Positions 32,743 to 36,542 of a stretch of DNA of 36,542 nucleotides are shown piece after piece (position 1 is the stretch's first letter; the number at the start of each line of letters is the position of its first letter). The DNA lies in contig JABDMI010000016.1 in assembly GCA_013001575.1 (NCBI GenBank), positions 1 through 36,542 on the forward strand, in the 5' to 3' direction. Under the pieces are notes generated by a model. That model saw only the letters and a program-made list of their open reading frames with translations. It had not been told where the DNA came from and made no database searches. The position numbers and the translations under genes are program-made. This DNA is from Gammaproteobacteria bacterium. GTDB lineage: Bacteria > Pseudomonadota > Gammaproteobacteria > Steroidobacterales > JABDMI01.

Positions 32743-33210
32743 TTAGTGATCAATTTTCACGACTAATACATCACACGGCGTATTTTGCACAATCGCTTTC
32801 GCAGTTGAACCAAAATAGGGGCGTTTTTCTTTTTTATGCTGACTGGCGGTGATGATCAGGTCACAGGCATTGGCCTGCGCAAATTCGGGAATACGTTCCT
32901 TGGGATCTCCGGTTTCAATAATGCATAAACTTTCATCGAGAGAATGGTCTTTGGCAATCTCTGCGAATAATTCCTGTTTGGCCGTAAAAACGCGTTCTTC
33001 AAAAGCGTCTTTATCGCCTAATGGCATAACCGGGATATACGGCATGGTTCCAAAAAATGTGGTTTCAAACGGGCGAACCACGTGCAGCAGTCGAATGCTT
33101 GTTGAAGCGCTTGCCAGTCTTTTGGCGCGTTCGATCAGGGCAACGGTGTTTATCCCCAGGTCAGTGGCGATCAGAATATTCTGATACTTATCCGTTTCTT
33201 GTTTACTCAT
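32743..33210 (-). CDS. Universal stress protein, degenerate ATP-binding motif
   Basis: A 155-aa UspA-fold protein beginning NILIATDLGINTVAL. It is paralogous to the next gene upstream (shared FxTxFFGTMPYxPV and GST-A segments). The ATP-binding Gly-x2-Gly-x9-Gly-Ser motif is altered: the stretch reads ASQHKKEKRPYFGST, so the first two glycines are gone. That suggests a non-ATP-binding (UspA-type) member. It lies 33 bp after its paralogue in the same direction and probably shares the FNR-type promoter. Confidence 0.9.
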   Translation of the reverse strand: MSKQETDKYQNILIATDLGINTVALIERAKRLASASTSIRLLHVVRPFETTFFGTMPYIPVMPLGDKDAFEERVFTAKQELFAEIAKDHSLDESLCIIETGDPKERIPEFAQANACDLIITASQHKKEKRPYFGSTAKAIVQNTPCDVLVVKIDH

Positions 33211-33243
33211 GGCTAATCCCTGTGAGTCAATATCAATTAAGTA

Positions 33244-33690
33244 TCAACTATACACTCTGACGGCCATTACATCACAAGGTGCATCATGCAACACCGCGCT
33301 GGCAGTAGACCCGAGCAGGGCACGCACACCTTTTTCGCCATGCGAACCAATGATGATCAGGTCCACCATGTTTTCTTCAGCGTATTCCTTGATCATGGTA
33401 GACGGCTTGCCGATCTCCAGGCGCCATTCTGTATTTGCCAGTTCATGTTCTTGAATAATTTTTTCAAAATGTTCCTTTTTGGCTTCGACCACACGATTTT
33501 CAATCTCTTCACCATCGATGATCACGGGAACGTAAGGCATGGTGCCGAAATAAGTGGTTTCCATTGGGCGCACAGCGTGCAACATAGAAAGTTTAGTGGT
33601 TTTCGACATCAAGCGGTTGGCTCGATCCAGAAGTGCTTCGGTATCAACCGAGAGGTCAGTGGCAATTAATATGTGTCGATAGTAACTCAT
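33244..33690 (-). CDS. Universal stress protein, ATP-binding type
   Basis: A 148-aa UspA-fold protein (HILIATDLSVDTEALL) with an intact nucleotide motif GSHGEKGVRALLGST, so it should bind ATP. It shares ETTYFGTMPYVPV with its paralogue downstream. The promoter region carries an exact FNR-type box at class II spacing from a TATGAT -10 box, predicting induction at low oxygen, which is common for Usp genes. Confidence 0.92.
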   Translation of the reverse strand: MSYYRHILIATDLSVDTEALLDRANRLMSKTTKLSMLHAVRPMETTYFGTMPYVPVIIDGEEIENRVVEAKKEHFEKIIQEHELANTEWRLEIGKPSTMIKEYAEENMVDLIIIGSHGEKGVRALLGSTASAVLHDAPCDVMAVRVYS

Positions 33691-36104: not shown

Positions 36105-36163
36105 TACGTATTTTCCCTATACGTAATTTTCACAATATCAAAATTTTGATTTTTTCCCTAGAC
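36105..36163. promoter_or_regulatory. Candidate operator array upstream of the second receiver gene
   Basis: Two TACGTA palindromes (36105-36110, 36120-36125) are 15 bp apart. Two direct copies of TTTTCCCTA(T/G)AC (36111-36122, 36152-36163) are 41 bp apart, about four helical turns. A perfect 14-bp palindrome ATCAAAATTTTGAT (36137-36150) lies between them. The minus-strand ATACGTAG resembles the GTAMGTAG core I recall for FixJ sites. Binding protein not proven. Confidence 0.5.
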
Positions 36164-36216
36164 TGCAGTTGTTCAAAAATAAAATAATTATTAGACAGTA
36201 AGACAGAATAGGTTTT

Positions 36217-36542
36217 ATGAGCAGTTCAAACAAAGTCGTTTTCCTGGTTGAACCGGACAGTGCGGTGCGAGACAGCATCCGCTCATTATTGGAAAGTTTT
36301 GATGTTTCAATTAAAACCTACGCCAGTGGCCGCTCGTTCTTGAACAACGCCAAACCAAATGGTCACGGTTGTGTGTTGGTTGAAAGCGATCTGCCGGATA
36401 TGACCGGAGTTGACCTGTCAAAGTACATCAGGCAACAAGGGCAAACATTGCCCGTGGTCTTACTGACCAGTAGCAATGATGTCGGTTTTGAAAAGCTGAA
36501 CCAGCCCGCGGTATCAGCCATTTTGCACAAACCTCTGAAAAG
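36217..36542 (+). CDS. FixJ-like receiver protein with Glu at the phosphorylation site (partial)
   Basis: The reading frame opens at ATG 36217 and runs off the window after 108 codons. It aligns along its length with the receiver of the preceding regulator: AVRDSI, GCVLVESDLPDMTGVDL, LPVVLLTSS, LHKPLK. Key changes are Glu56 where the neighbour has phospho-accepting Asp55, and Glu12-Pro13 in place of the metal-binding Asp pair. The Thr/Ser and Lys positions are kept. It is probably a pseudo-receiver not controlled by normal phosphorylation. Whether a DNA-binding domain follows cannot be seen. Confidence 0.85.
   Translation, partial: MSSSNKVVFLVEPDSAVRDSIRSLLESFDVSIKTYASGRSFLNNAKPNGHGCVLVESDLPDMTGVDLSKYIRQQGQTLPVVLLTSSNDVGFEKLNQPAVSAILHKPLK

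Follow-up and report, generated by a model that had tools for sequence, protein, structure and literature searches.

FixT, a single-domain receiver of S. meliloti and Caulobacter crescentus, lowers the autophosphorylation of FixL and is itself unphosphorylated (PMC7078487); in S. meliloti, fixT lies immediately after fixL and fixJ. Osp of Rhodobacter sphaeroides, a single-domain pseudo-receiver without the Mg-binding acid pair and the Lys of canonical receivers, inhibits CckA, and CtrA, the response regulator of that inhibited system, induces it (PMC9430884). The ALR/PsR domains (CmrT, RitR, ChxR) are also recognised by PF00072 and have altered phospho-Asp and Mg-binding residues, and most of those studied have an output domain. 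Where receivers lack the Asp, Glu is the residue that most often replaces it (26%), and such a replacement can be activating in some receivers (PMC4395418). Several percent of all receiver domains are pseudo-receivers, whose activation mechanisms were called a mystery in a 2025 review (PMC12632262).

The window analysed here is a whole contig (G000:C16) of 36,542 nucleotides, the last part of which encodes a FixL-like kinase, a FixJ-like regulator and a pseudo-receiver (Table 1). PAS2 of the kinase has its best PDB match in the FixL haem domain (1d06, E 2.9e-25), and its haem ligand H191 and FG-loop R211 align with those of S. meliloti FixL and are conserved in all kinases of the syntenic loci described below; the kinase probably binds haem and senses oxygen. 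The receiver of the regulator is complete (D11, D12, D55, T83, K105). Since neither protein reaches its NCBIfam equivalog cut-off (FixL, 324.9 bits against 850; FixJ, 224.6 against 255), we call them FixL/FixJ-like. A haem-PAS kinase with the conserved His and Arg, a FixJ-like regulator and a FixJ-type operator are what the locus shares with the oxygen-sensing FixL-FixJ system, from which it differs in having an additional, promoter-controlled pseudo-receiver and in that no nitrogen-fixation genes were seen alongside. Two tandem universal-stress-protein-like genes (32743-33690, minus strand) stand directly upstream of the kinase gene, and a universal stress protein gene likewise adjoins fixL in S. 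meliloti (L079, 1239-2063).

Table 1. Features of the FixL/FixJ-like locus at the end of the window (positions count from the first base of the window).
Feature	Position	Strand	Remarks
FixL-like sensor histidine kinase, 503 aa	33949..35460	+	Pfam: two PAS, HisKA, HATPase
FixJ-like response regulator, 203 aa	35457..36068	+	PF00072 and GerE; canonical receiver and LuxR-type HTH
Candidate auxiliary FixJ site GTATTTTCCC	36108..36117	+	Matches 9 of 10 positions of the in-vitro-selected FixJ site GTAGTTTCCC
Predicted FixJ operator TACGTAATTTTCACAATA	36120..36137	+	18-bp motif, directly before the pseudo-receiver gene
-10-like hexamer TAGACT	36159..36164	+	Offset of 39 bases from box start; inferred from spacing
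Stand-alone pseudo-receiver gene	36217..36542	+	First 108 codons; 11 further codons on contig C108, 119 aa in total

The third gene encodes a Response_reg domain (PF00072, E 2.6e-15; 57 bits against a gathering threshold of 30.2) with 34% identity to the neighbouring FixJ-like protein. In the alignment of the two, the acid pair D11-D12 of the regulator corresponds to E12-P13 and its phospho-Asp D55 to E56, and T84, K105 and D14 are retained. A first-pass annotation of this DNA had read these positions in the same way and had placed the gene with a FixL/FixJ-like pair that has a haem-type kinase; both observations hold. Recognised by PF00072, without the phospho-Asp and with altered Mg-binding acids, the protein has the marks of a pseudo-receiver, and it is, as the first-pass annotation expected, unlikely to accept phosphate from the kinase.

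The reading frame (36217-36540, plus strand) is still open where the contig stops at 36542. Reverse-complemented, the terminal 127 bases of the window (36416-36542) are identical to the end of a second contig from this assembly (G000:C108:28204-28330), their sole other match in the genome. Such an overlap is expected of neighbours in an assembly graph, and it is the basis on which the two contigs are here provisionally joined, which places the trio of genes beside those of C108. Across the join the protein ends in HKPLKSQDLVKLIESL and closes at 119 aa; its last residues, ILHKPLKSQDLVKLIESL, form a normal receiver C-terminus. A LuxR-type HTH, which the first-pass annotation proposed to seek past 36542, is absent from the continuation on C108: because the frame stops at 119 aa, the product is a stand-alone receiver, and without a DNA-binding domain it is not the second, always-on transcription regulator that had been envisaged. 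Like FixT, it therefore consists of a single receiver domain with no output domain. The next gene on C108 encodes an ABC-transporter ATPase. The genes beyond the window end (L003, G000:C108:12000-28330), named by eye, presumably include a MacAB-like ABC transporter, a P-type cation ATPase, Hsp20, an FNR-type regulator with an N-terminal Cys cluster, and genes like those of a ribosome hibernation factor and BCAM0308; we take this set to be reminiscent of a low-oxygen persistence island. No Rfam match was found between 30000 and 36542.

The arrangement recurs well beyond this genome. Among 59 relatives searched, with neighbourhoods of ~11 kb inspected, 21 loci from the same taxonomic order have histidine kinase, FixJ and stand-alone receiver genes consecutive on one strand, and further examples occur in other families of the class. 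Two genomes of the window's own genus (G001 and G002, 73% and 89% complete) yielded no match to the FixJ-like protein or the stand-alone receiver, so that the module looks patchy within the genus; a scan of one named genome returned distant receivers only. We compared 25 stand-alone receivers from FixL-FixJ loci, 22 of them from the window's order and three from elsewhere in the class. Not one has a complete active site, and just two have an acidic residue at the second Mg-binding position; the loss of this residue in nearly all members marks the family as a whole as pseudo-receivers. FixJ keeps the acid pair, the phospho-Asp and the Lys in every one of these loci. A sequencing error, which the first-pass annotation had named as a possible source of the substitutions, and chance as well, are ruled out by the degeneracy of the same positions in syntenic genes of other species.

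The phosphosite itself is Glu in six of the 25 proteins and Asp in another six, the others having Ala, Asn, Ser, Gly, Lys or His, and the Glu share is similar to that in Asp-less receivers generally. The suggestion that Glu56 is a built-in phosphomimic fixed among orthologues and making a permanently on regulator is for this reason very improbable: the window protein does combine Glu56 with Thr84 and Lys105, but the residue is not fixed in the homologues and there is no output domain. At the level of the family a fixed Glu phosphomimic is refuted, and the idea could still hold for the window protein alone.

The third gene also has a predicted promoter with a FixJ-type box, which the first-pass annotation had not noted. 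Unsupervised motif discovery in the intergenic regions between fixJ and the third gene (148 bp in the window) gave the motif TACGTACATTTCCGTATT, with a model log-likelihood of 158 against 45-59 in shuffled sets. Every one of the 22 trio loci has the 18-bp box (13-26 bits), and these scores are partly circular since the same loci trained the profile; behind 18 FixJ genes that lack a third gene the score is at most 10.4 bits. Four checks, on the window itself, a held-out trio, S. meliloti and other genes of relatives, are free of this circularity. When the window was excluded from training, 36120-36137 was still the top site on either strand of the 36.5 kb (15.4 bits against 11.7 for the next), although this box is among the weaker ones of the set. 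In a held-out trio from another family the box scores 21.5 bits at the expected place, together with a -10; of the two weaker held-out loci, L144 has a box of 11.2 bits before an FNR gene, itself followed by the pseudo-receiver, and L143 lacks a FixJ-type box. Applied to S. meliloti, the trio-only profile returned TAAGTAATTTCCCTTAGT as the best site in 9.4 kb (17.6 bits against 8.9 for the next), thereby ranking first TAAGTAATTTCCCTTA, the FixJ site established by experiment in the fixK promoter (quoted in PMC4999443).

In most trio loci the box is accompanied by a -10-like hexamer at an offset of 39-41 bases (counted from the box start), a spacing that would put the centre of the box near -42, the position of a class-II activator. 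With the FixJ-type operator and the -10 at conserved spacing, the pseudo-receiver gene may be under FixLJ control. The candidate auxiliary site at 36108, which resembles the consensus obtained by SELEX (quoted in PMC4999443), scores low with the 18-bp profile (3.2), and GTANTTTCCC occurs once in the window where 0.27 occurrences are expected. Among relatives the box is also found upstream of genes whose translations read as ccoN, FNR/FixK-type regulators and universal stress proteins. All of these are familiar low-oxygen targets of FixJ-type regulators. In this genome, matches to a loose consensus (three mismatches) were not enriched genome-wide. In the genomes of L071 and L074, which have FixL and FixJ and no pseudo-receiver, a FixJ-like box, TAGGTAGTTTCCGC, lies in the gap that separates fixJ from a ccoN-like cbb3 oxidase gene.

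This conserved promoter also bears on whether the gene does anything at all. Pseudo-receivers share a mean identity of only 28%, their active-site residues have been lost in many ways and they evolve fast, as might be expected of a functionless, decaying duplicate of the FixJ receiver. Against this stand intact reading frames at 22 loci, a fixed gene order, a dedicated and conserved promoter, and dN/dS ratios which, in close pairs, are 0.09-0.36 for the third gene against 0.03-0.13 for fixJ, well below 1. Judged by these ratios, the gene is fast-evolving yet constrained by purifying selection. A pseudogene is ruled out by the dN/dS values together with promoter conservation, and the decaying-duplicate reading, largely refuted, retains hardly any probability.

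Part of the phosphomimic idea does survive in the distribution of the switch residues. Four of the six Glu proteins retain both Thr/Ser and Lys, against none of the 19 others (Fisher 0.001), and the four (the window protein and those of L070, L142 and L143) come from different families. It may be that these members hold an active-like form, or just that they have degenerated less than the rest. A FixJ-made, constitutively folded pseudo-receiver could act on some other partner as an output adaptor, with Glu56, Thr84 and Lys105 keeping the Glu members in an active-like form. In the CmrT-type model on which such an adaptor would be built, the two-component system merely alters the amount of an always-active receiver. 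The predicted FixJ box before the gene is compatible with this proposal, as are the activating effect of Asp-to-Glu changes in some receivers (PMC4395418) and the coincidence of Glu with the kept switch residues. Most syntenic members, however, lack both Glu and the switch Thr, and an active-like form therefore cannot be the general mechanism of the family; the Glu members may just have degenerated least. We regard the adaptor as quite unlikely.

If the protein acts by contact within the module, its target could be the kinase or the regulator. The window protein is closest to FixJ in beta1-alpha1 (50% identity) and least like it in beta4-alpha4 (25%), a contrast which, in this one protein, fits docking on the kinase in the absence of FixJ-type dimerisation. 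The alternative is that the target of the pseudo-receiver is FixJ and not FixL: it would serve as heterodimer partner, as decoy or as stabiliser of one FixJ state, with the promoter logic unchanged. Its ancestry speaks for such a role, since the best NCBIfam match of the window protein and of four other pseudo-receivers tested is the FixJ model, and the tree too points to descent from FixJ-type receivers; heterodimers of a pseudo-receiver with a regulator are known as well, in WhiI/BldM (quoted in PMC12632262). The alpha4 region, however, is part of the usual dimer face and is where the window protein is least FixJ-like, and alpha4 is also the low-confidence part of the structure model. We consider this alternative unlikely. 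The general notion of a partner or decoy, raised by the first-pass annotation, is supported. The structure predicted from a two-row alignment is receiver-like, with a mean pLDDT of 66 and alpha4 unresolved, and was set aside for those reasons. At the kinase-docking face, pseudo-receivers did not co-vary significantly with their own FixJ (p 0.1-0.5), and the low identity among pseudo-receivers makes a single shared contact less than obvious. In a tree of short receivers, those of FixJ group in one clade, outside of which the third-gene proteins fall on long branches, the place of the window protein being weakly supported.

On balance we think it probable, with modest confidence, that phosphorylated FixJ switches on a pseudo-receiver that feeds back negatively on FixL/FixJ in the manner of FixT and Osp. 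Low oxygen, or the loss of another haem ligand, would activate the FixL-like kinase, which would phosphorylate FixJ; FixJ~P would bind the box at 36120-36137 and induce the pseudo-receiver, whose gene would have a class-II-type promoter of its own. The product, to which ordinary phosphorylation should be impossible, would work through contact with another protein: its FixJ-like alpha1 face would most likely dock on the FixL transmitter, and it would either damp autophosphorylation or compete with FixJ. That the pseudo-receiver damps FixL is proposed because it resembles FixT and Osp in place, size, degeneracy and wiring. Gene order, the loss of catalytic residues across species, purifying selection, the conserved FixJ-type operator and the conserved haem-ligand residues are computational findings; that FixJ activates rather than represses the gene, that FixL is the partner and target, and that the effect is inhibitory are inferred.

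The likeness to FixT extends to a degenerate, stand-alone receiver of ~115-120 aa tied to FixL/FixJ, to control downstream of FixJ (here predicted), to a presumed lack of phosphorylation (FixT is not detectably phosphorylated), and to a Cys at the start of beta3, which FixJ has as well. The window protein has a single Cys (C52) and lacks the four-Cys Fe-S motif, which is found in Caulobacter FixT only. It is also much nearer to FixJ receivers than FixT is, and its predicted FixJ box precedes the gene; the S. meliloti box instead follows fixT and stands ahead of the FixK-type gene that comes next. The NCBIfam model for FixT (NF051882) has no match at the pseudo-receiver gene, the best in the genome being 12.5 bits elsewhere against a cut-off of 150, and an equivalog of FixT was rejected on this ground; the model is narrow, given that S. 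meliloti FixT itself scores only 28.8 bits. Osp shares the single pseudo-receiver domain, the missing Mg-binding acids and induction (here predicted) by the response regulator of the system, and differs in acting on CckA and in being monocistronic and not adjacent to its kinase gene. From the ALR/PsR domains studied, most of which have an output domain, the window protein differs in standing alone in a FixL/FixJ module with a predicted FixJ operator.

Two other arrangements were seen. At L144 (1900-3360, minus strand) the order is FixL, FixJ, box, FNR and pseudo-receiver, and the FixK-like gene between fixJ and the pseudo-receiver is reminiscent of the rhizobial fixLJ/fixK/fixT set. Plasmid-borne trios of Rhizobium indicum (L150) and Sinorhizobium medicae pSymA (L152) were rejected as parallels as their third receivers are canonical; they possibly represent the ancestral, phosphorylatable form of the arrangement.

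A literature search found no description of such a module outside the Alphaproteobacteria. As a tentative proposal, FixJ-controlled pseudo-receivers may constitute an undescribed and widespread feedback arm of FixL/FixJ there, derived from FixJ receivers independently of FixT and working free of phosphorylation; members that keep Glu, Thr and Lys, the window's among them, could then be locked in an active-like form. From the genomes of more than 20 species one can read off both probable partners, the kinase and the regulator encoded alongside, and, through the FixJ operator, the probable inducer, so that function is directly testable. The evidence is suggestive of a brake built into the oxygen response, not of an always-on regulator, and, if this is true, FixT-like feedback on oxygen sensing would extend beyond the Alphaproteobacteria.
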